Shown: piece by piece, positions 4,992-22,187 of the stretch
Layout: each line of letters starts with the position of its first letter
How positions within the stretch are numbered: position 1 is the first letter of the stretch
Assembly: GCA_008080735.1 (NCBI GenBank)
Contig: SHMW01000012.1
Location: forward strand, 1 to 64,000
Length of the DNA: 64,000 nucleotides
DNA from: Promethearchaeota archaeon
Lineage (GTDB): Archaea; Asgardarchaeota; Lokiarchaeia; Sigyniarchaeales; SOKP01
Direction of reading: 5' to 3'
The notes under the pieces: model-generated
Seen by the model: the letters and a program-made list of their open reading frames with translations, nothing else
The model's database searches: none
What the model was told of the DNA's origin: nothing
Translations under genes and position numbers: made by a program

Positions 4992-5735
4992 TTATTTTCC
5001 TCTACGTCTATTCCTTTCGATAAATTCTTCCAAATCAGAAACAAGTAATTCTGCGGAATATTGAGGCCAGTATTCATTTCGAAATTTGAACTCCGCATAT
5101 GATGCGTCCCATAAACAAAATCCAGAGATACGGGCACCGTCTTCCATCCCTGTTCTCACGATAAAATCTACTTCAGGAAACGAATTGGTATAAAGATAAT
5201 TTTTAAGGGTATTTCTATTAATCTCATCGGGATTGACATTATTTTTAATCATTGTTTTAACCGCATCTACGATTTCTGCTTGTCCATCATACATAATCAA
5301 AATGTTTACAAAATTTTCATTGAAATCCTTGGTAAATTCATGGAGCTCTTCCACCTTTTTTCGCACCTTCTCCGGTAAAAGATGTAATCTTCCGAGTATG
5401 CGGAATTTCACTTGTTCTTTGACTACGATTTCTTCGCTCATTATTGTCTCTATAGCTTTTATGATGATTTTATAGATATATTTGAGTTCCTCTTTGCTGC
5501 GTTTTCGGGCATTTTCTAAAGAAAGCGCATACACCGTAAGGTATTTGATTCCTGCATGAAAAAAGGAATATAAGATATCTTTAAGAGTTTTGTAGCCATT
5601 TAAATGCCCCATTTTAATATCTAAGCCTTGACTTCGTGCCCATCTACGGTTTCCGTCAGGTATGATTCCCACATGCTTAGGCAGCTTGTCCCCGACATCA
5701 TCCTTCAATTTCTTCAGTAATTCAGTACTTTCCAT
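4992..5735 (-). CDS. uppS: Isoprenyl transferase (cis-prenyltransferase, UppS family)
   Basis: HVGIIPDGNRRWARSQG, GHLNGYKTLKDIL, YALSLENARKRSKEEL and DFIVRTGMEDGARISGFCLWDASYAEF motifs. Confidence 0.95.
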   Translation of the reverse strand: MESTELLKKLKDDVGDKLPKHVGIIPDGNRRWARSQGLDIKMGHLNGYKTLKDILYSFFHAGIKYLTVYALSLENARKRSKEELKYIYKIIIKAIETIMSEEIVVKEQVKFRILGRLHLLPEKVRKKVEELHEFTKDFNENFVNILIMYDGQAEIVDAVKTMIKNNVNPDEINRNTLKNYLYTNSFPEVDFIVRTGMEDGARISGFCLWDASYAEFKFRNEYWPQYSAELLVSDLEEFIERNRRRGK

Positions 5736-6209: not shown

Positions 6210-7838
6210 ATGATTGGAAATGATTATCTTTTTACGGACATTGGAATAGATTCTTTTTCCTTCCATGCTCCTCGGTATTATATCAATTTAGAAGAGCTAG
6301 CGAGAGCGCGAGGCGTTGACCCTGATAAATACAGCAAGGGATTGATGCTGAAAGAAATGCGCTTTCCCGAAGCTGACGAAGATATTATCTCGATAGGTTT
6401 AAAGGCAGCATATAGTGCTTTACTGCGAGGAAATATCAATCCGAAAGAAATTGACGCGATCTTTGTAGGCACTGAAACCATTACATACGCAGTAAAATCT
6501 GTGTCTAATATTTTTGCTGAACTGCTTAATGTGAATCAAAATTGTTTAACTCAAGATATTTATAATGCCTGTGCTGGAGGCACATTGGCAATTCTAAATG
6601 CTATTGCCTTAATCGAGAAGGATGTGATCAATAAAGCGTTAGTAATTAGTGCAGATATTTCAAAATATCCCTTAGGAAGTCCCAGTGAGCCTACACAAGG
6701 TTCTGGGGCGATTGCCTTAATTATCTCTCGAAATCCTAGAATTGCGAGTTTTAGTAAAAAATTTGGGAAAGTCTCAGGAAATGTAAATGATTTCTGGAGA
6801 CCACCAGGTACAGACACTGCGGAAGTCTTCGGCCATTATTCTGTCGATAGCTATTTGAAATTTCAACTGGAAGCATATGACGACTTGATAGACAAGATTG
6901 GAGAATTTTACGCGGATTTTTATGCATTCCATGCCCCATTTTCAAAGCTTCCGCTAAAATGTATGCGGCAGATCATAGAAAAAAGATGGGTTCATAATCT
7001 CAATAATTTACTTAAAGTGAATCGAACACAATTAAAAGATTCACTTTTTCAGAAATTAGATTCATTTTTACAAGATATTAGTGTTTTGCCTGAGTATGTA
7101 TATCTGAATCTAAAAGAGCGGGGTCTATCCTCAAAGAAGTTGGAAAAATTGTCTAATTGGGTCGTTTCTAACGTCAAAGGAAAGATTTTACCGCATCTTT
7201 CAGTACCAATGCATTTTGGAAATATGTACAATGCTGCGGTCTGGGCTCAAATAATGTATATTCTCGAAAATTATGCAAAAGAAAATAATACCATTTATTT
7301 CGGCTCATATGGATCTGGCGCTACATGTATTACAGGGATATTGAAAACCAAATATGGATTTAGAAAGGTGGTGGATCGTGGACCAAAAATTGACGATTTT
7401 CTACAAAATAATAAGGAACATAAAACCATAGAGGAGTACGAAAAACTCAAATCGGGAGAAATCCAACCAGAATTTGTAGTAGGGAAAGTCGTTGAGCATG
7501 AATTAAACGATAATCGAGGTTTTTATCTGAGATTTTGCGATGAGGGTTGTATAATTCCTAATATTGAAGGATTAAATTATTGTCCTCAAGGGCATTCCGG
7601 GTTTCATGAACGATTTTTCCCCTTATATGCAAAATTAGACTCAGATCCTATTAAAACGGATACTTATGATCTCAGTTATCTTAATAAAGGATATGTGCGG
7701 ATTGAGAGTAATGTGAATAAAGAAAACACGTTGGAATATGAAATTCGACGAGTAAAGATGAAAGATGAGGAATTAAGCGCAAAAGGTTTGCTCAACTGGA
7801 GTCCCAAATACATAAAAGCTGGGCGTATTGTGCATTAA
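6210..7838 (+). CDS. Hydroxymethylglutaryl-CoA synthase, long form with C-terminal extension
   Basis: 542 aa; NACAGGTLAILNAI (active-site Cys), SADISKYPLGSPSEPTQGSGAIALII, FYAFHAPFSKLPLK, FGSYGSGATCITGIL. Confidence 0.9.
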   Translation: MIGNDYLFTDIGIDSFSFHAPRYYINLEELARARGVDPDKYSKGLMLKEMRFPEADEDIISIGLKAAYSALLRGNINPKEIDAIFVGTETITYAVKSVSNIFAELLNVNQNCLTQDIYNACAGGTLAILNAIALIEKDVINKALVISADISKYPLGSPSEPTQGSGAIALIISRNPRIASFSKKFGKVSGNVNDFWRPPGTDTAEVFGHYSVDSYLKFQLEAYDDLIDKIGEFYADFYAFHAPFSKLPLKCMRQIIEKRWVHNLNNLLKVNRTQLKDSLFQKLDSFLQDISVLPEYVYLNLKERGLSSKKLEKLSNWVVSNVKGKILPHLSVPMHFGNMYNAAVWAQIMYILENYAKENNTIYFGSYGSGATCITGILKTKYGFRKVVDRGPKIDDFLQNNKEHKTIEEYEKLKSGEIQPEFVVGKVVEHELNDNRGFYLRFCDEGCIIPNIEGLNYCPQGHSGFHERFFPLYAKLDSDPIKTDTYDLSYLNKGYVRIESNVNKENTLEYEIRRVKMKDEELSAKGLLNWSPKYIKAGRIVH

Positions 7839-7891
7839 ATTTTTTTATAACATATTAAAATTTATTTTTAGCTATCTTTTTAATTTAGTAA

Positions 7892-8869
7892 GTGAACATC
7901 TTGAAATCTGTGAAATCAATATCTCCCGGAAAGAGCATTTTATTTGGGGAACACGCGGTTGTGTACGGTTATCCTGCAATCGCGATGGCAGTTTCTATTA
8001 CGTCGAGCGCTATTATTCGGGAATTAAAAGACCCTAATCTAATCATTGATTTAAAGGATAATGATCTAATAATAGAAGTTTCAGACTTAAAGGAGTTAAT
8101 TTCGAATATTCCTTCAAAATATAGTCAGTACGGTAGATGTTTAGAAATCTTCCAAAAACGGTTTGATCTACAGATTGAGAATATCGAGATTATATTGCAG
8201 AGTGAGCTCTTTCCAGGCGCTGGATTAGGTTCCTCGGCATCTCTTTCGGTTGCCCTTGTGTCTGCATTAAATTCTTACTATGAAACGGGGTTGGAAAAAA
8301 ATGGTATCAATGAAATCGCTTATGAACTGGAAAAAATAATTCATGGTACTCCTTCAGGGATCGATAATACCATCACCACGTTTGGAAATGCGATTTATTA
8401 TCAAAAGAGTGAATTCAATTTCATCGATCTTACCAGAGAAATCCCTCTCCTCATCACATATTCTAATATTGAACATAATACAAAAGAAGCAATCGATCGC
8501 ATTCGGAATTTGAAGGAAAAAAATCCCCAAAAAGTCCAAAAGATTTTAAAAAATATAGGTAAAATCACAGAGGAAGCTAAGAAAGAATTGCAAAGAGGAA
8601 ATTACCAAGAAATCGGAGAGCTCATGAACTTAAATCAAAAATATCTGGCAGAATTAAAGGTGTCAAATAAAGCCATTTCTCAAATCGTTGATATCTCCAC
8701 TCAAAATGGAGCCTATGGCTCAAAATTGACCGGAGCGGGGTTGGGCGGATGTGTGATAAGCATCGGGGAGAAGGATATGTTGAAAAATATCGCCGATATA
8801 TTGAAAGATCAAGGATTTCGCAGCTTTTTAGCTGAAAATGATAAAAAGGGTGTAAGAATTGAACAATAG
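7892..8869 (+). CDS. mvk: Mevalonate kinase (GHMP family)
   Basis: SPGKSILFGEHAVVYGYPAIAMAV, LFPGAGLGSSASLSVAL, GTPSGIDNTITTFG, KLTGAGLGGCVIS. Confidence 0.95.
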   Translation: MNILKSVKSISPGKSILFGEHAVVYGYPAIAMAVSITSSAIIRELKDPNLIIDLKDNDLIIEVSDLKELISNIPSKYSQYGRCLEIFQKRFDLQIENIEIILQSELFPGAGLGSSASLSVALVSALNSYYETGLEKNGINEIAYELEKIIHGTPSGIDNTITTFGNAIYYQKSEFNFIDLTREIPLLITYSNIEHNTKEAIDRIRNLKEKNPQKVQKILKNIGKITEEAKKELQRGNYQEIGELMNLNQKYLAELKVSNKAISQIVDISTQNGAYGSKLTGAGLGGCVISIGEKDMLKNIADILKDQGFRSFLAENDKKGVRIEQ

Positions 8870-9680
8870 CACGATAGAGCCAGTTATGATAGTAAAATTA
8901 GGGGGCAGCTTAATCACTAATAAGAGTAAACCGTTTTCCCTACGGAAGAAAGTGATTAAAAATGCAATTTCTGAAATCATAGAGAGTAAAAAAAAAATCA
9001 TAATTGTGCATGGGGGAGGATCTTTCGGACATCCCATAGCGAAAAAATATAATATTAATTCTGGGATAGATCCTACAATACCCAACCAAATTTTTGGTCT
9101 GGCTAAAACACATAGTGTAATGACCGAATTGAATAAATATATCATAGATGAGTTAATAAAAAGACAAATTTCGGCAATATCAATCCAACCTTCATCCATT
9201 TTTTTCAATGTTCCCCAAAAAGGAATTATTTTCAACTTCGAGCCTATTAAATTAAGTCTTGAATTAGGTATGATTCCGATTTTATATGGAGATATAATGC
9301 TCAGCAGTAGGAGCAATTTCTCGATTCTTTCTGGCGATACAATAATCCTAAAAATATGCGAAAAGACTGAGGATTTCAACATCTCTAAAGTTGTTTTTAC
9401 GATGGAAACTGACGGACTTTATATAAAGAACCAAGATACTGATGAGATTGAATTAGCCCATGAAATCAATTATCACCAAATAGATGCCATCCAGCTTGCG
9501 AATTTAGGTGGAAAAATTGATATTACTGGAGGGATTAGAATCAAACTAAATAATATAAAGGAAATAATGAAGTTGGGAATCCCAATCCAGCTTATAAATG
9601 GTCTTAGAGAAAATAACATTTACAGTGCCTTAAACAATAAATCAGTAAAAGGCACCTATTTTCAGCCACCTAAATCATAA
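8859..9680 (+). CDS. ipk: Isopentenyl phosphate kinase
   Basis: Amino-acid-kinase fold: VKLGGSLITNKSKPFSLRKKV, IIVHGGGSFGHPIAKKY, GDTIILKICEK, DGLYIK, DITGGIRIK; overlaps the end of mvk. Confidence 0.95.
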   Translation: MNNSTIEPVMIVKLGGSLITNKSKPFSLRKKVIKNAISEIIESKKKIIIVHGGGSFGHPIAKKYNINSGIDPTIPNQIFGLAKTHSVMTELNKYIIDELIKRQISAISIQPSSIFFNVPQKGIIFNFEPIKLSLELGMIPILYGDIMLSSRSNFSILSGDTIILKICEKTEDFNISKVVFTMETDGLYIKNQDTDEIELAHEINYHQIDAIQLANLGGKIDITGGIRIKLNNIKEIMKLGIPIQLINGLRENNIYSALNNKSVKGTYFQPPKS

Positions 9681-9845
9681 AGAATTTTCATTCTAAACCG
9701 ATTTATAGTAATATTCAAATAGGTAAAATAGATTCCTAGTCTAATAGATCATTTTCTAATTCTAGGATTATATTTTTAAAGATTCTCAACTAATTATCCA
9801 TAGTTAAAAAAATAATTTCAAATCCAATATCATAAGTGATCCAAA

Positions 9846-10358
9846 TTGAGTTTCATAGATTGGGAAAGCTGTGAAGAGAAACCAACTAAATCCCAAAAAG
9901 TCGAAGGCAGATTCTTATTAGATCTTCGCTCCAAAATTAATGATCTAGAAAGACAATTAAGAGAGAAGAGTCTGAATTTTGAAGAAATAAAAAAAGAATT
10001 TGAAAAGGCTGCAGCAAAAGCGAAAGAATTAAAGAGCAAAATCGAGAGCAAGGATGAGAAAATATCATCACTTCTGAATCAACTGGAAGCTAATGATTTG
10101 ACTATTCAAGATCTTGAACAAGAGTTGTCAAATAGTCGTATTCAAATTAGAACTCTTGAGAAGGATTTTAGTTCCAAATTAGATGAGAATATGGATCTTA
10201 AACAGAAGATTTCTAATTTTGAGAAAAAGCTAAATCTCCCCGAAAAGATGGAATACTTAATCAATAGACTGAATAAGATAATGGAGCATAAAGGATTTGT
10301 ATCCGAAAAAGAATTAGAAGATATCGTTAATGGAAAGAAAATCTATGATTTTAGCTGA
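9846..10358 (+). CDS. Coiled-coil protein, paralogue of the 13973-14776 gene
   Basis: 170 aa, TTG start; shares SQKV.GRFLLDLR.K..DLE at the N-terminus and KGF..EKELE.I..GK at the C-terminus with the second copy. Confidence 0.75.
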   Translation: MSFIDWESCEEKPTKSQKVEGRFLLDLRSKINDLERQLREKSLNFEEIKKEFEKAAAKAKELKSKIESKDEKISSLLNQLEANDLTIQDLEQELSNSRIQIRTLEKDFSSKLDENMDLKQKISNFEKKLNLPEKMEYLINRLNKIMEHKGFVSEKELEDIVNGKKIYDFS

Positions 10359-10381
10359 CTGGTTTCTTTTTAACTCATATC

Positions 10382-10768
10382 CTATAATTTGAGGTATCCT
10401 TCAGACGCATTTACATAGACTTCTTTATTATTCGGTATTTTATCTATATCAATTCCTTGAACCATTGGAATGTCTGAAATAATTGCTCCTACTGCTACGA
10501 TTGCCTCTGCTTCAGCATTTATAAGAGCAATAGGTGCTTTTTGATTTTTTTTCAATTGATATATGACATAAGATCCCACTGTAGACCCTTTTCCAAGAGG
10601 AAATACGAATACTTTCCCAGCTATCGATTGTCCATAAAGGGCATTCTGTTTATCTACTATAGTGCCCTTGTCTGGATCAACATCTCCGAGAAAGGATATA
10701 GGGGTAGTACTAACTAGACTTCGTGCTTTTACTTTCCCTGGGACAATGGACTTACCCTTTAATATCAT
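10382..10768 (-). CDS. Aconitase X swivel domain protein (DUF126); phosphomevalonate dehydratase small subunit
   Basis: 128 aa; KGKSIVPGKVKARSLVSTTPISFLGDVDPDKGTI, FVFPLGKGSTVGSYVIYQL. Confidence 0.9.
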   Translation of the reverse strand: MILKGKSIVPGKVKARSLVSTTPISFLGDVDPDKGTIVDKQNALYGQSIAGKVFVFPLGKGSTVGSYVIYQLKKNQKAPIALINAEAEAIVAVGAIISDIPMVQGIDIDKIPNNKEVYVNASEGYLKL

Positions 10769-11894
10769 TTAAAAGTTCCTCTCTAGGTTTTAATATCGTT
10801 TTTATTTGGGACAATGTTTGCGAATAGTGTGCGGATTTAGTAGAGTCGGTAGCAAGACATTCAATACCTAATTTCTCCACAGGTGCCACAACCATACATG
10901 TATCTGAAAAAATTTTTATATTTGAGGGTACAGCTTTAATCTTTTCTTTGGCTTGTTTTGTCGTACATATCCAAATCTCTTTATTGGTTTTGTTTTTTTG
11001 TATTATTTCTTCAATCTCTTCTAATGAACAATGTGGACATCCAAAACTTATAATATTTGGCCTATCGCAATTTGTTAAATCTTCTTGAATAGAGATCAAT
11101 TCTTCGTGGTCCACGTGAATCCTTTCGGGCTTTTCAATTATACGAAATTCGGGTGTGATATTTTTTATCATGAATAAGGGTATCCCTCCTGATGCAGCAG
11201 CTCCTGCTCCCAGTGATTTAAGTTGGATCTGGTTTGCTTTCTTGATTCCAGAGATGATTGGGATTTTATTTTGTGCGTATTTACCAATATAATACCCCAA
11301 CAATGAGAAATCAAAATCCGTGAGGTCAAAATCTACTTCAAAGAGGATTTCTCCAACTCTATTCCTCTCCAAATGCATTCCATAATTTGGTGTTTTTCCG
11401 ATTAATGCCGCTGAGAGGGCACTTGGACCTCCCTCCCTATTAGTCATGGCTCCTAATATTGAATTTGCAAACACTACCGCAGACGACTCTGACCATGCAA
11501 TATGACTCCCTTTAGCTGGAATCAAACCTGCATGATATGGTGTGCAAGTGCAACTTTTTTGGATACCCATTGAAGTGAGCGCATCGATTATTCGGAGTTG
11601 TTTATTGGCAAAATCTTCAGATATCCCCATCTCTTTCCAATTAATAAGATCCATCCCCGCAGGATTCATCCTAGTTTCTACTACTACCTTTGCGTGGGAC
11701 CAATCTTCTAAAAAGCTCAATCCGGCATCTCCAATTGTCTTGTAAGAAACTCCCGAAACTTGCACTGAATCAATTGGTATTAACTTATCAGCATCAAAAA
11801 TATCTCCCAAAGTAGCTAGAATACGCATCGCTTTGGCCTTTATTGGTCCTAATTCACCATCTAAAATCTTTTCTTCCTGTTTTGTTAGAAACAT
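10752..11894 (-). CDS. Aconitase X catalytic domain protein; phosphomevalonate dehydratase large subunit
   Basis: 380 aa; CTCTPYHAGLIPAKGSHIAWSESSAVVFANSILGAMTNREGGPSALSAALIGKTPNYGMHL, FGCPHCS; overlaps the small subunit start. Confidence 0.92.
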   Translation of the reverse strand: MFLTKQEEKILDGELGPIKAKAMRILATLGDIFDADKLIPIDSVQVSGVSYKTIGDAGLSFLEDWSHAKVVVETRMNPAGMDLINWKEMGISEDFANKQLRIIDALTSMGIQKSCTCTPYHAGLIPAKGSHIAWSESSAVVFANSILGAMTNREGGPSALSAALIGKTPNYGMHLERNRVGEILFEVDFDLTDFDFSLLGYYIGKYAQNKIPIISGIKKANQIQLKSLGAGAAASGGIPLFMIKNITPEFRIIEKPERIHVDHEELISIQEDLTNCDRPNIISFGCPHCSLEEIEEIIQKNKTNKEIWICTTKQAKEKIKAVPSNIKIFSDTCMVVAPVEKLGIECLATDSTKSAHYSQTLSQIKTILKPREELLNDIKG

Positions 11895-13150
11895 TAAAAA
11901 CCAGCTTTGTTGAACTCTTCATTGTTTATTATCGGTTTGGTCGCATCCATCCCATATTTACATGTAATAGAATCTTCTGAGGAGGGATCTAAAGATGATC
12001 CTTTTGATTTTGGAACAAGAATTAGATCTTTATCTGCTTGAAAACGAGTTGCCACTGCCCATTCCACCTCATCAGGATTGGTTAGATCAATATCCTCATC
12101 AACAATAATCACACGTTTTAAACTAGGATGGGCTGCTAGAGAAGCTAATATAGCATTTTTAGGATCTCCTTCAGTTCTTTTTTCTATCTGAACGACTGCG
12201 TGTAACCAAGAACATCCTCCTTGAGTGAGAACCACATTTCTTACCGTAGGAATGGTATTGGAAACAGCTTTGAAAATCCGTGGTTCTTGTGGGATCCCCA
12301 TTAACATTTTGTGTTCCCTTCCGCCTGGTAAGATTGTTCTGAAGATCGGATTCTCTCTAAAATAGAGTGTATCCGCGATAAGAACTGGTTGTTTTCGAAC
12401 TCTATCTGCAGTTCCCGTTAAATCGATAAAAGGCCCTTCATCCGCTAATTGAGGTGTGATTCTCGCTTCAACTACAAACTCAGATTCGCAAGGTACAAGT
12501 ATTCCATTTGGTAATCTGAACACATCCAGACCATTTAAAAACGAAGAACTCAATTCTAACTCATCCAACTCGGGTGCGGAAAATGCAGAAGCAATTTCTA
12601 TTGCGGGGTGGATTCCGAATACGATGGTGACCTTTAATTCCTTTCCGCCTTTCAAAGCGTATTGATATGCATTATCTAAGTGTCTCTGGGCAACTATTCG
12701 AATTGAAAACCTATTCTGACCAATATACATCATCCGATGAAACGATGCGTTTTGACGTTTCTCATTTGGATAATCCACAATAACGACACTTGAAGTTGTG
12801 TATTTTTTGCCCGAATAGAAATCGATTACAGGTAAAAACTTATCAATTGTATTTTCTGAATCTAATTGAATCTTGTTCTTTAGGAAAGAAGCTGAATCCC
12901 TTATCTCGTATTTTCTAACATTTTCTAATTTTTTTAATATCTTTGGTATAGTATTTTCTTTAGTAGTGTTTAAAGCTAGCGCCACACTCTTTCGATTTGT
13001 AATCAATCCCGCAAGAATCATCGCATCGTATTCTTTAACTTTATAAATTGTTGGTGATTCATTTCGATCTTTAATTAATTTGGCGAGTTGAGTTATTTCA
13101 ATAAGATCTTCAAATTCTGTAATTCCAATTTTTTCCAAGAAACTTCGCAA
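11894..13150 (-). CDS. UbiD-family decarboxylase; probable trans-anhydromevalonate-5-phosphate decarboxylase
   Basis: 418 aa; UbiD motifs FGIHPAIEIASAFSAPELDELELSSSFLNGLDVFRLPNGILVPCESEFVVEARI, EGPFIDLTGTAD. Confidence 0.92.
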   Translation of the reverse strand: MRSFLEKIGITEFEDLIEITQLAKLIKDRNESPTIYKVKEYDAMILAGLITNRKSVALALNTTKENTIPKILKKLENVRKYEIRDSASFLKNKIQLDSENTIDKFLPVIDFYSGKKYTTSSVVIVDYPNEKRQNASFHRMMYIGQNRFSIRIVAQRHLDNAYQYALKGGKELKVTIVFGIHPAIEIASAFSAPELDELELSSSFLNGLDVFRLPNGILVPCESEFVVEARITPQLADEGPFIDLTGTADRVRKQPVLIADTLYFRENPIFRTILPGGREHKMLMGIPQEPRIFKAVSNTIPTVRNVVLTQGGCSWLHAVVQIEKRTEGDPKNAILASLAAHPSLKRVIIVDEDIDLTNPDEVEWAVATRFQADKDLILVPKSKGSSLDPSSEDSITCKYGMDATKPIINNEEFNKAGF

Positions 13151-13210
13151 TTGAATCTACCTCTAAAATTTGAGTTATTATAAAATATGTTAACATTCTA
13201 AAAGATTTGA

Positions 13211-13759
13211 CTAAAATTCTCCCCAGCGTTTTATGTTTGAATCTATCCCCACCAGATCTAAAATGCGTCCTACGATATTTTCATTGAGTTCTTCAATAGA
13301 TTTTGGTTTTATATAATAGGAAGGGATGGGAGGCGCAATAATTACCCCTAATTTGGCTAATTTCAGCATATTTTCTAAATGGATTGCATTAAATGGGCTT
13401 TCTCTTACCGCCAAGATAAGTTGCCTTTTTTCTTTTAAGCTAACATCCGCGGCTCTCGTTATTAAAGTGTCTGCGAATCCGTGTGCAATTGCAGATAAAG
13501 TTTTCATCGAACAAGGAATAATTATCATTGATTCAAATTTATAGGATCCACTTGAGGGTGGAGCGGTTAGGTCATTTTCAGAATGACATCTTGTTGCAAG
13601 ATTTTGGATCCTATCTATTGCAAAATCCGTTTCTAGTTCAATCACATCTTTTGCATTTTCCGAAATAATTAAATCCGTTTCAATATTGTGGTTCTTCAAA
13701 GCTTCGAGTAATTTTACCGCGAAATTTACTCCAGAAGCGCCAGTTATAGCTACTATCAT
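13211..13759 (-). CDS. ubiX: UbiX-family flavin prenyltransferase
   Basis: 182 aa; MIVAITGASGVNFAVKLLEAL, IIIPCSMKTLSAIAHGFADTLITRAADVSLKEKRQLILAVRESP. Confidence 0.95.
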   Translation of the reverse strand: MIVAITGASGVNFAVKLLEALKNHNIETDLIISENAKDVIELETDFAIDRIQNLATRCHSENDLTAPPSSGSYKFESMIIIPCSMKTLSAIAHGFADTLITRAADVSLKEKRQLILAVRESPFNAIHLENMLKLAKLGVIIAPPIPSYYIKPKSIEELNENIVGRILDLVGIDSNIKRWGEF

Positions 13760-13972: not shown

Positions 13973-14776
13973 ATGAGTGTTGACTGGATAAAGGCAGAAG
14001 AAAACCCAGATAAGTCTCAAAAAGTATCTGGAAGATTTCTATTAGATTTAAGAGCCAAGACTTCAGATTTAGAAAAGCATTTAAGCCGGCTAAAGTCTGA
14101 ATTAGAAGATAAAACTGAAAAATTAGCTGATTCGAAAGAAAAACTCATCAATTCTGAAAAATATTTGGAAGAACTTACACTTAAATTAAAAGATACTAAT
14201 CAAAAAATAAAAGATTTAAAGAAAACCCGAGAAGAATTGAATCAAGAAATCTCCAATTTGGAACACAGGTTAGAAGAAAAAGATGCTATCATAGATCATA
14301 TGGAGGAGAAAATGAAAGAATCTTCTGAGAAGGTTATAAAATTAAATAACATAATCAATGAAAAAGAAAAACTTTTGAAGGATAAAGACAACCTCGTACA
14401 AGAAAGAGAGAATACAATAAATGAAAAAGATAGATTAATCGGAAATCAAACCTCAAAGATCACCGATCTTCAATCAAAAATAGAGAACTTAAACTCTCAA
14501 TTGCAATCTAAAGAAGAACAAATTAACAAATTCCACCAAAATATTGAAAAACTGAAAGAGGAGGAGGAAAAAATAAAAAATAGCTACGAAGAGAAGCTTT
14601 CCTCCAAGCAAGAACAAATCGATGATTTGAAAATGGATATTAAAACAATCAATGACACGATTGAAGAAGCCCAAGAAATTCAATCCCTTATGAAGAAAAT
14701 GTCAGAAGTGATGGAGCTTAAAGGTTTTATCAACGAAAAAGAATTGGAAGAAATAAAAGCAGGGAAGCAAATTTAA
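13973..14776 (+). CDS. Long coiled-coil protein, paralogue of the 9846-10358 gene
   Basis: 267 aa; MSVDWIKAEENPDKSQKVSGRFLLDLRAKTSDLEK, near-continuous heptads, then KMSEVMELKGFINEKELEEIKAGKQI. Confidence 0.8.
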   Translation: MSVDWIKAEENPDKSQKVSGRFLLDLRAKTSDLEKHLSRLKSELEDKTEKLADSKEKLINSEKYLEELTLKLKDTNQKIKDLKKTREELNQEISNLEHRLEEKDAIIDHMEEKMKESSEKVIKLNNIINEKEKLLKDKDNLVQERENTINEKDRLIGNQTSKITDLQSKIENLNSQLQSKEEQINKFHQNIEKLKEEEEKIKNSYEEKLSSKQEQIDDLKMDIKTINDTIEEAQEIQSLMKKMSEVMELKGFINEKELEEIKAGKQI

Positions 14777-14945: not shown

Positions 14946-16067
14946 GTGAATACTCTACCACTCATGTTTAAAAAATTGGGGGAAAATGAACGTGTTTTAG
15001 GATGTTTTCCTCTCTATCCCCCCTTGGAATTACTGGATTCAATGAACTTCACACCCTTTATTATGTGGGGATTTAAAAATCTGTTTTCAAATACCCATCA
15101 GAGTGACAAACATATTCAGAATTACGTATGTTCTATTGTCAGGTATCTCACAGAATTTTCCATCTCCGAATATGGGTCTATCCTAAAAGGTCTGCTTTTT
15201 TATAATGCTTGCGACAGTTTGAGAAATTTACCCGAAATATTAACTACCGCCCTCAGAGGAAAGAATCAAACTATTCCATCTATTCATTTTCATCTTCCAA
15301 TGAAATCTATGGAAAAATCTTATGTTCATAATTTTCTTATAAATGAAATAAATCTTCTTATTCAAGATCTTGAGAAGCTTTTTCAAACTACATTCAATTT
15401 TGAACAATTTCGAAAAAGCGTGAATAACTATAGAAAATATCGACAATTGTCTAAGCAATTAGAAGATGCAGTCATACAAAATAAGAAATCTTATGAAGAT
15501 TATGTGAAGACAATGTTTCAGTCGAATTATCTAAATATTCATGAGAAAATAAAATTAGTAAATTCCTCTCTCAAGAAAATCTCCGAAAAATCAACTTTAG
15601 AGAAGAATTCAAATATGAACAAGGTAATTTTATCGGGAATCTTCCCTCCTCCTCTAAAAGTGATTAAGCTTATTGAAAATTCTGGATTTCAAATAGTGGG
15701 TAACGATATTGCCTCGCTTAGGCGAAGTGTTCATTATACCCCACCCGAAAATTCATATCAGAATGTAGGAGAGTATTATGTTGAGTTTTATCAAAACCAT
15801 TTTCCATGTCCGACCCTACTTTATACCTCAGATAGGCGAATACCAAAATTTCTGGAATTGATTGATTTTACCGATGCTGATGGGGTGATTTTTATTGGGG
15901 AAAAGTTTTGCGAATATGAATATTTCGAATTCCCAACACTGAAGAATGCTTTAAATAAAAATGGAATAAAAACACTGGAATTGGAGTTTTCAGCAGAAGA
16001 AACCTATAATATAGAGGCTTATAAAACCAGAATCGAAGCCTTTTATGAATTAATTTCAAATATATAA
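14946..16067 (+). CDS. 2-hydroxyacyl-CoA dehydratase family protein (HgdB/BcrB-C-like), subunit 1
   Basis: 373 aa; N-terminal LGCFPLYPPLELLDSMNFTPF, LLFYNACDSLRNL, GVIFIGEKFCEYEYFEFPTLKNAL; adjacent to a clear family member. Confidence 0.78.
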   Translation: MNTLPLMFKKLGENERVLGCFPLYPPLELLDSMNFTPFIMWGFKNLFSNTHQSDKHIQNYVCSIVRYLTEFSISEYGSILKGLLFYNACDSLRNLPEILTTALRGKNQTIPSIHFHLPMKSMEKSYVHNFLINEINLLIQDLEKLFQTTFNFEQFRKSVNNYRKYRQLSKQLEDAVIQNKKSYEDYVKTMFQSNYLNIHEKIKLVNSSLKKISEKSTLEKNSNMNKVILSGIFPPPLKVIKLIENSGFQIVGNDIASLRRSVHYTPPENSYQNVGEYYVEFYQNHFPCPTLLYTSDRRIPKFLELIDFTDADGVIFIGEKFCEYEYFEFPTLKNALNKNGIKTLELEFSAEETYNIEAYKTRIEAFYELISNI

Positions 16068-16085
16068 TCTGGAAGGAAGAAAAAA

Positions 16086-17351
16086 ATGTCAAAATCACGA
16101 AGATTAGAAAAGTCTGCGAAAAATCTCACGAAGATGATGGGGATGTATTACACATACAATAAAATTCAAGCGAAAAAAGGTAAATTTGTCGTCTGGATCG
16201 CGATTGTAGTCCCTGTTGAATTATTAAAAGGATTTGATGATCTCATCATCGCCGTCCCAGAAAATCATTCCGCCATGTGTGCGGCTAAAAAATTAGGTCC
16301 TACTCTTGCTGAAACTGCCGAAAGTAAAGGATTTTCGATGGATTTATGCTCCTACGCACGAATAGATATGGGTTCCATGTTTGGTGATGGAGAAAACTCT
16401 CCTATTGGGGGACTACCTAAACCAGATTTACTAATTTCAAATACTAATAACTGTTCTTTGCTGGTAAAATGGTTTGATGTGTACCATCGTGAATATGATA
16501 TTCCCCACTTTATCTTGGATATTCCCTTCTGTTATGAGGAGCAAAAAGAAAAAGATTTGGAATATATTGTAAGGCAATATAGGGAATTAATCGATTTTAT
16601 TGAAGATTTATCTGGAAAAGAATTCAGTATTGAAAAAGTAAAGGAAGCAATTAAATACTCAAATCAAGCGATGAAGCACTGGAAGAGATTTCTCGGATAT
16701 GCGGCACATCACCCATCGGGAATTTCTGCCTTCGATTCTTTTGTGCATATGGCCCCGTACTTAAGTTCTCATCGAGGTACCCCCTTAATTGTAGAACATT
16801 TTAAAATGCTTGCAGATGAGACCCAAGCCTTAATGGAAGAAGGAGAATATCCAGTCAAAAATGAAAAATATAGATTATTATGGGATAACATCGCTCCTTG
16901 GCATCAATTACGACCTATGTCTTCAAAACTTGCAAAAATCGATGCAAATATTATTTATGCGACATACACTTCTTGCATGGGAACTGTAGAAGGCGAGATT
17001 GAACGGTATTCATTAGATCCGAACAAACCATTGAGATCTTTAGCACGAATCCAGAACTCTACAGTCTGTCCTTATGGACTTGAATTACGATTTAACGCTA
17101 TGTCAGAGATGATAGAATGGTTTGATATCGATGGTGTGGTATTCACGAGCAATTTCAGTTGTAAACCTTATTCGGTTATGCAATTAGATCTAATGAGGAA
17201 GATACAAGAATCCTATCCTAAAGTCCCTTGCGTAATGATCAATGTGGATCACGCAGATGTAAGAAAATATAATGAAGAGAAGGTTTTTCTGAAAATAGAG
17301 ACTCTTATAGAGGAAATCGAATCCATAAGAGAAAAAAGTATTGAGAGCTGA
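16086..17351 (+). CDS. 2-hydroxyacyl-CoA dehydratase family protein, subunit 2
   Basis: 421 aa; PENHSAMCAAKKLGPTLAETAESKGFSMDLCSYARIDMGSMF, PDLLISNTNNCSLLVKWFD, CPYGLELRFNAM, FSCKPYSVMQLDLMRKIQE. Confidence 0.92.
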   Translation: MSKSRRLEKSAKNLTKMMGMYYTYNKIQAKKGKFVVWIAIVVPVELLKGFDDLIIAVPENHSAMCAAKKLGPTLAETAESKGFSMDLCSYARIDMGSMFGDGENSPIGGLPKPDLLISNTNNCSLLVKWFDVYHREYDIPHFILDIPFCYEEQKEKDLEYIVRQYRELIDFIEDLSGKEFSIEKVKEAIKYSNQAMKHWKRFLGYAAHHPSGISAFDSFVHMAPYLSSHRGTPLIVEHFKMLADETQALMEEGEYPVKNEKYRLLWDNIAPWHQLRPMSSKLAKIDANIIYATYTSCMGTVEGEIERYSLDPNKPLRSLARIQNSTVCPYGLELRFNAMSEMIEWFDIDGVVFTSNFSCKPYSVMQLDLMRKIQESYPKVPCVMINVDHADVRKYNEEKVFLKIETLIEEIESIREKSIES

Positions 17352-21119: not shown

Positions 21120-22187
21120 TTAAAATTCTCTCTCTGCTACAAAATTCAGAAGAGTTTCGAAAAATTCCAATTCATCTTCATGGATTACACCTTTTAATCG
21201 ATCTAAGGCTTCAACGGCTTCCTTATAATAAGATTTCGCTAATTCTCTACAAAATACGTCTGCTTTGGATTCCTTGAAAAGCTGCTTTACGAGTACTACT
21301 TCCTCATCAGTAATATTTTGTTTCTCTATGATTGATATTAATCTATTTCGTCTCTCATCGGATAATTTATTTAATGCTTCGATTAGTAAGCAAGTTTTCT
21401 TTCCCTCTTTAATATCGGAATCGGTAGGCTTGCCCGTTTTTTTCTCATCTCCGAAGGTTCCAAGGATATCATCAATTATTTGAAAAATGATCCCCAAATT
21501 CATACCGTATGTACTTAGGGACTTCAGATATTCTTCCTCTACTTGTGCATAGACAGCGCCTATAAGAATGGATTTCTCAATCAATGCACCGGTTTTCAGT
21601 GAAATCATCTGAATGTATTCATCCATAGTTAAATCCGTCTTATTTACGATATCAGTTTCTATTAATACCCCGTTGGCAATTTCTATAAAGGCTTTCTTAT
21701 ATAAATCCACGCCCTTAATGTTTAGATTGCTACTGAAACCGTTATTCAGGTATGCTTCTAATCCCAGAAAAAATGCCGAATCACCACCAATAATACCGAT
21801 TGATGTCCCAAAATCTTCAGCTTTCATCTTTTTTAAGTTATATTTTTGATGATATTGGCGATACCTATAATGAAAAGAAGGTTCTCCCCTTCTTATTTCG
21901 TCATTGTCAATAATATCATCATGTATGAGAGAAGCATTATGTAGAAATTCTGTCCCAACGCAAGGTGTTAGGATTTTATCATCTCTAGAATCTGAAAATG
22001 CCATATAGGTTGCGATACATAAAAGTGGACGGATTCTTTTTCCCCCAGCTAAAAAATAGCTCTGGAGTTCTGTGTAATACTCTTTAAGAAATACATTATC
22101 GACAGCTTCGATTTTTCTCTTATATATCGATCCTATGACTTGATTTATTTTTGGTTTATATTGCTTACTATATTCTATAAAATTCAT
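21120..22187 (-). CDS. Polyprenyl synthetase family protein (geranylgeranyl/farnesyl diphosphate synthase)
   Basis: 355 aa; GGKRIRPLLCIATYMAF, LIHDDIIDNDEIRRGEPSFHYRY, LKTGALIEKSILIGAVYAQ, IFQIIDDILGTFGDEKKTGKP. Confidence 0.95.
   Translation of the reverse strand: MNFIEYSKQYKPKINQVIGSIYKRKIEAVDNVFLKEYYTELQSYFLAGGKRIRPLLCIATYMAFSDSRDDKILTPCVGTEFLHNASLIHDDIIDNDEIRRGEPSFHYRYRQYHQKYNLKKMKAEDFGTSIGIIGGDSAFFLGLEAYLNNGFSSNLNIKGVDLYKKAFIEIANGVLIETDIVNKTDLTMDEYIQMISLKTGALIEKSILIGAVYAQVEEEYLKSLSTYGMNLGIIFQIIDDILGTFGDEKKTGKPTDSDIKEGKKTCLLIEALNKLSDERRNRLISIIEKQNITDEEVVLVKQLFKESKADVFCRELAKSYYKEAVEALDRLKGVIHEDELEFFETLLNFVAEREF

Follow-up and report, generated by a model that had tools for sequence, protein, structure and literature searches.

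By which route does a Lokiarchaeal archaeon make isopentenyl diphosphate (IPP), and from where did the genes of that route come? This question is raised by a locus at the start of contig SHMW01000012.1 of a Promethearchaeota archaeon (assembly GCA_008080735.1), whose first 64,000 nucleotides (G000:C12:1-64000) were analyzed and are hereafter called the window. Genes for HMG-CoA synthase (HMGCS), mevalonate kinase (MVK), and isopentenyl phosphate kinase (IPK) lie there on the + strand, followed on the − strand by those for the small and large subunits of aconitase X (AcnXS and AcnXL), a UbiD-family decarboxylase, and the flavin prenyltransferase UbiX. The locus very probably represents an archaeal-type mevalonate pathway in which the UbiD-AcnX module belongs to a lineage other than that of most of its family, most likely transferred horizontally into a cluster that formerly held the ATP-dependent phosphomevalonate decarboxylase (PMD) of the haloarchaeal type, whereas the HMGCS, MVK, IPK, and UbiX of the window are native. 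The genome is a metagenome-assembled genome (MAG) of 4.15 Mb in 140 contigs, with an estimated completeness of 93% and contamination of 7%, so that absences from it are provisional. Gene identities were scored against Pfam and NCBIfam profiles with curated cut-offs; these identities, the key residues, trees, and gene orders, and the absence of phosphomevalonate kinase (PMK) and PMD from the assembly were all computed.

The proposed pathway and its enzymes

An original prediction, made from the sequence alone, had placed the seven genes and proposed that they form the archaeal-type route. Open reading frames and Pfam/NCBIfam matches agree with every position and strand, and chance is ruled out as the source of the profile scores. 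HMGCS (6210-7838, + strand, 542 aa; PF01154 and PF08540 above cut-off) would form HMG-CoA, which the single HMG-CoA reductase (HMGR) detected in the genome, encoded on contig C4, would convert into mevalonate. MVK (7892-8869, + strand, GTG start; TIGR00549 275 against a cut-off of 163) would then yield mevalonate 5-phosphate, and the AcnX heterodimer, equipped with a [4Fe-4S] cluster, would dehydrate this to trans-anhydromevalonate 5-phosphate. The small subunit is the AcnX swivel domain, DUF126 (10382-10768, − strand; PF01989 118 against 27, NF003046 above cut-off), and the large subunit lies at 10752-11894 (− strand; PF04412 449 bits against 31.5). The UbiD-family protein (11894-13150, − strand, TTG start; TIGR00148 326 against 245), on the basis of this score and of the trees a putative trans-anhydromevalonate 5-phosphate decarboxylase, would produce isopentenyl phosphate with prenylated FMN (prFMN) from UbiX (13211-13759, − strand; TIGR00421 248 against 109). 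UbiD enzymes depend on prFMN, which UbiX supplies. IPK (8859-9680, + strand; NF040647 220 against 120), the only one detected in the whole genome, would convert isopentenyl phosphate into IPP, and a type-2 IPP isomerase (IDI2) on contig C4 would provide dimethylallyl diphosphate (DMAPP). Thus, the AcnX, DUF126, UbiD, UbiX, and IPK profiles, proposed beforehand as a check, all score above their cut-offs. The overlapping reading frames claimed for both runs hold for the − strand, where AcnXS and AcnXL share 17 bp and AcnXL and UbiD 1 bp; the MVK/IPK overlap depends on the listed TTG start of IPK and vanishes with the ATG at 8886, which may be the true start.

The AcnX heterodimer is predicted to be the phosphomevalonate dehydratase, and UbiD the anhydromevalonate phosphate decarboxylase, because of their profile scores, the three [4Fe-4S] cysteines, and the position of UbiD in its tree; we infer these and the other enzyme activities of the window proteins from sequence. 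AcnXL residues C117, C286, and C333, invariant across 15 homologues in an Asgard alignment, align with the Fe–S ligands C110, C283, and C342 of T. kodakarensis AcnX (TkAcnX; 7CNR/7CNS; numbering from PMC8184944). TkAcnX is a full-length homologue of AcnXL and a putative enzyme, activity not having been shown for the T. kodakarensis protein itself (PMC8184944), and the active A. pernix enzyme (ApPMDh) carries a [4Fe-4S] cluster on three conserved cysteines, C122, C297, and C356 (PMC10040528). With these cysteines and a separate small subunit (the PF01989 partner), the window protein has the features of a phosphomevalonate dehydratase, AcnX type IIb. Moreover, the two subunits are separate proteins, which reach 222 and 77 bits against a profile cut-off of 700, and they show the type II cysteine pattern without the type I site-C cysteine. 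The motif EGPFxD is present in 107 of the 109 UbiD sequences compared, including that of the window, and reads EGPFGE in the reference HmfF. In the UbiD phylogeny that had been suggested as a further check, the window protein groups with AcnX-linked archaeal UbiDs, commonly encoded directly upstream of AcnX, and apart from HmfF, AnInD, and AroY (support 92/95, with few outgroup rows).

A second pair of AcnX large and small subunits, about 30–40% identical to the dehydratase, occurs in several relatives (L323-L329: G012, G010, G004, G003, G017, G034, and G029) and was not found in the window genome; in G003 and G004 it adjoins RibD-like and CofG/H-like genes. The idea that it is a relic of the other module type was considered and rejected, since the large subunit is a third paralogue, only distantly related, and comes with a small subunit of its own.

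The HMGCS is a divergent Lokiarchaeal form, reaching 236 bits with TIGR01835, below the equivalog cut-off of 360, but its catalytic E89, C121, and H241 are invariant in 22 homologues. It has an insert at about 260–325 and a C-terminal domain (residues 415–542, window 7452-7835) with invariant C443, C447, and C458. In structure prediction, the whole protein is poorly modeled (pLDDT 56) and the C-terminal domain alone reaches 82; the PDB entries that match this domain best are DUF35 chains from the thiolase/HMGCS complex and from aldolases, at weak E-values of 0.07–0.2, and the domain may therefore bear a faint resemblance to DUF35, which is best taken as a lead.

Missing steps and the carotenoid cluster on contig C4

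Neither HMGR nor IDI2 lies in the cluster of the window, as had been noted originally; one of each was found above cut-off in the genome, both on contig C4. They belong to a cluster (G000:C4:73221-81708; L107:7221-15708) that also contains a gene resembling diphosphomevalonate decarboxylase (DMD), CrtI-like, CrtB-like, and CrtZ-like genes, and a second HMGCS. Clusters of this type occur in the close relatives G003 and G004 and, without the CrtZ-like gene, in the more distant G016, with pieces in G002. HMGR and IDI2 would thus be shared between the pathway of the locus and carotenoid synthesis.

The coexistence of PMK and DMD elsewhere in the genome had been named in advance as evidence against the archaeal-type route. 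Half of that pair is present, since the DMD-like gene on C4 scores 246 bits with TIGR01240 (cut-off 171), and no PMK was found among the six GHMP kinases of the genome, which are MVK, the DMD-like protein, two best matching pantoate kinase and beta-RFAP synthase, and two that are sugar-kinase-like or unassigned. PMD of the haloarchaeal type, recognizable by the KYHG motif, occurs in G012 and nine others of the family and is lacking in the window genome. With neither PMK nor PMD, the dehydratase route is therefore the only complete one visible in the genome, which holds both AcnX subunits, a UbiD of the AMPD type, MVK, IPK, HMGR, and IPP isomerase, alongside a lone DMD-like gene instead of a PMK and DMD pair. 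The DMD-like protein could offer another way to isopentenyl phosphate, provided that the monophosphate is among its substrates. Taken together, the profiles, the Fe–S cysteines, the UbiD clade with its EGPFxD motif, and the lack of a detectable PMK support the route originally proposed.

Two lineages of the UbiD-AcnX module in one family

A UbiD match was detected in 31 of the 37 genomes of the family to which the window belongs, and these fall into two types. The window type, 63–65% identical, is restricted to six of them (G000, G002, G003, G004, G010, and G012), while the UbiD of the remaining 25 is just about 36–40% identical to it; AcnX splits the family in the same way. Two relatives recorded as Candidatus Lokiarchaeota (L157 and L158) have a UbiD 63–66% identical to that of the window. 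The UbiD tree places the window clade (100/100) with Heimdallarchaeota (99/94) and with an Aenigmatarchaeote (98/91); the rest of the family groups there with genome G055 and a group of Bathyarchaeota, Nanohaloarchaeota, and Asgard archaea. A single family clade is rejected by the approximately unbiased (AU) test for UbiD (p = 8.6e-66) and AcnXL (p = 0.0044), and is also rejected for MVK (p = 2.2e-7), the window type of which groups with families f2 and f5 and the other with G055 and two genomes of family f4. Judged by these trees, the UbiD-AcnX module of the window is not orthologous to that of most of its Lokiarchaeal family. UbiX forms one clade for all family members (support 98), from which it reads as vertically inherited in the family.

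Elongation factor 2 (EF-2) is present as two paralogues in these genomes, and just the well-sampled one was used as a species guide. In this tree, the family is monophyletic (support 100) and the carriers of both module types are interleaved: genus g1, that of the window, stands beside g3, which has the other module type, and G010 and G012 are placed elsewhere.

Gene order and inferred history

Families f2 and f5, in which no UbiD or AcnX match was found, have the order HMGCS-PMD-HMGR-MVK-IPK or most of it. Most members of the window's family show HMGCS-[PMD]-HMGR-UbiD-AcnXL-AcnXS-MVKb-IPK-IDI2, in which PMD is retained in some species and a four-gene cassette (UbiD-AcnXL-AcnXS-MVKb) stands between HMGR and IPK. 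In the window clade, the native MVK has been kept instead, and UbiX-UbiD-AcnXL-AcnXS form a run of their own; within this clade, G012 retains PMD in the order HMGCS-PMD-HMGR-MVK, and G000 and G004 have neither PMD nor HMGR left between HMGCS and MVK.

Since f2, f5, and the window-type G012 all retain HMGCS-PMD-HMGR-MVK, dehydratase/decarboxylase modules probably entered a PMD-type (haloarchaea-type) cluster at least twice, with PMD lost afterwards. In the window lineage, the UbiD-AcnX module would have been acquired horizontally, after which the PMD of the host cluster would have disappeared here and been kept in relatives; we infer this direction of replacement from synteny and trees. A broader account is favored, though with clearly less assurance than the foreign origin of the module: one family would have passed from PMD to the dehydratase route at least twice, as different modules, one of them bringing an MVK of its own, were independently transferred to the same ancestral cluster. 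The species in which both routes persist would be living intermediates, and the window lineage would draw its HMGR and IPP isomerase from the carotenoid cluster with its orphan DMD.

Two features had seemed distinctive of the locus in the original prediction, and neither holds among its relatives. The cluster is not unusually compact, since many relatives have HMGR and IDI2 in the same run, and the inclusion of UbiX is shared with G056, an Aenigmatarchaeota locus (L160), and others.

IPK and IDI2 are fused in one frame of about 630–637 aa in 13 genomes (L109:7726-9630 of G010 and 12 others), the fusion of G024 being shortened by a contig end; other genomes have separate genes. No report of this fusion was found in the open-access literature searched.

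Alternative explanations

Several points weigh against the pathway and history proposed here. The incompleteness and contamination of the MAG leave the absences provisional, and the DMD-like gene on C4 could give a parallel route if mevalonate 5-phosphate were accepted. Moreover, the AcnXL tree shows no supported affinity to Heimdallarchaeota or Aenigmatarchaeota, Heimdall AcnX not having been sampled, which leaves any naming of the donor tentative. In family f4, an archaeal-type module occurs and PMD does not, which makes the ancestral condition of the order ambiguous. The main rival is that the family ancestor held both UbiD-AcnX types and every lineage then kept one. Two old copies followed by losses would also be expected to interleave the two types on the EF-2 tree; however, two UbiDs never occur together in the 31 family genomes that have a match, the extra AcnX seen in some genomes is the distant paralogue mentioned above, and each type has its own gene order, one of them with a different MVK. 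Such differential loss is thus considered unlikely.

The remaining alternatives would alter the reading of the enzymes or of the assembly rather than their history. It is improbable that IPP or isopentenyl phosphate really comes from the DMD-like decarboxylase, with a minor or redundant part for the genes of the window. The clustering of the DMD-like gene on C4 with HMGR, a second HMGCS, and IDI2 would fit such a role, as would the argument in PMC11052028 that mevalonate 5-phosphate may be a further substrate of the DMD homologues in order CR-4, but no PMK accompanies it, clusters of the C4 type have a patchy distribution (G000, G002, G003, G004, and G016) compared with UbiD, present in 31 of the 37 family genomes, and IPK, required for either isopentenyl-phosphate route, is located in the window. 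Substrates vary among UbiD family members, and AcnX and UbiD could in principle serve another pathway, for instance as a hydroxyproline dehydratase or an aromatic-acid decarboxylase, lying beside MVK and IPK by chance. Nevertheless, the type II cysteine pattern with a separate small subunit, the adjacency of UbiD and AcnX in many archaea, and their linkage to MVK, IPK, and UbiX throughout Lokiarchaea make this very improbable. An assembly or binning artefact that brought in the module from another organism, conceivable in a MAG with this contamination estimate, is scarcely credible, given that the same module lies beside the Lokiarchaeal UbiX in five further genomes, which span three genera and include G004, an assembly of about 10 contigs, and that two of the module-bearing records carry the name Candidatus Lokiarchaeota.

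Relation to known pathways

The pathway type is already known and has been reported for Asgard archaea (PMC11052028). The enzyme set (MVK, AcnX heterodimer, UbiD, and IPK) and the Fe–S cysteines are those of the known archaeal-type pathway; here, however, it is clustered with UbiX, HMGR and IDI2 belong to a carotenoid cluster, and the module lineage differs from that of most family members. In PMC11052028, the haloarchaea-type pathway (PMD and IPK) is described as the only one that Ca. Prometheoarchaeum syntrophicum MK-D1 has; the flanking order HMGCS..HMGR-MVK-IPK of this pathway recurs in the related families f2 and f5, whereas in the window genome, which lacks PMD, UbiD-AcnX would fill the PMD step. 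Chimeric Asgard sets are also reported there, with PMK, DMD, AMPD, and AcnX in Hodarchaeales and DMD without PMK in order CR-4, and the window genome likewise combines archaeal-type genes with a DMD homologue and no PMK. However, two module lineages in one family, the exchange of the companion MVK, and a DMD in a carotenoid cluster are not described in the passages of PMC11052028 examined.

What is new is the split of module lineages within one family and the placement of HMGR and IDI2 in the C4 carotenoid cluster. No prior description of the split, the MVK swap, or the carotenoid-cluster HMGR, IDI2, and DMD-like genes was found in the open-access literature, to which the search was confined, and an earlier account may exist; on Lokiarchaeal PMD and Lokiarchaeal carotenoids, nothing beyond PMC11052028 was found there. 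The locus is a patchwork that offers a clear snapshot of pathway replacement. In published models, the archaeal type gave rise to the haloarchaeal, Thermoplasma, and eukaryotic types, and Asgard archaea are proposed as the source of the eukaryotic type. Within one family, the locus and its counterparts in related genomes suggest the opposite direction: an essential lipid pathway would have been rewired by module exchange while UbiX, the cofactor enzyme, and the flanking genes remained where they were. Where a genome holds PMD as well as the dehydratase route, it would be possible to test which of the two is used and why one wins.

Beyond archaea, MAGs of Myxococcota/Deltaproteobacteria (L165, L187, and L190, and also L182 and L186) contain AMPD-type UbiDs, mostly adjoining AcnX, and the first three also carry IPK-like genes, with UbiX in two. 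These loci appear to be archaeal-type mevalonate clusters in bacteria; no paper on a bacterial phosphomevalonate dehydratase in Myxococcota was found in the open-access literature.

Neighboring genes

Two isoprenoid genes of the window lie outside those originally pointed out. A cis-prenyltransferase (UppS; 4992-5735, − strand; PF01255 197 bits, TIGR00055 above cut-off) is the divergently oriented neighbor of the cluster and occupies the same position in most relatives across the order, and a trans-polyprenyl synthase of the geranylgeranyl diphosphate (GGPP) type (21120-22187, − strand; PF00348 201 bits) is a likely consumer of IPP and DMAPP. The AcnX-UbiD-UbiX run is bracketed by two paralogous coiled-coil proteins (9846-10358, function not assigned, and 13973-14776, both + strand), which share the N-terminus DW..xE..P.KSQKVxGRFLLDLRxK and recur next to the cluster in several relatives, the latter also beside UbiX. 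Further along the window, at 14946-17351, stand two neighboring genes for HgdB-like D-components of 2-hydroxyglutaryl-CoA dehydratase (PF06050).
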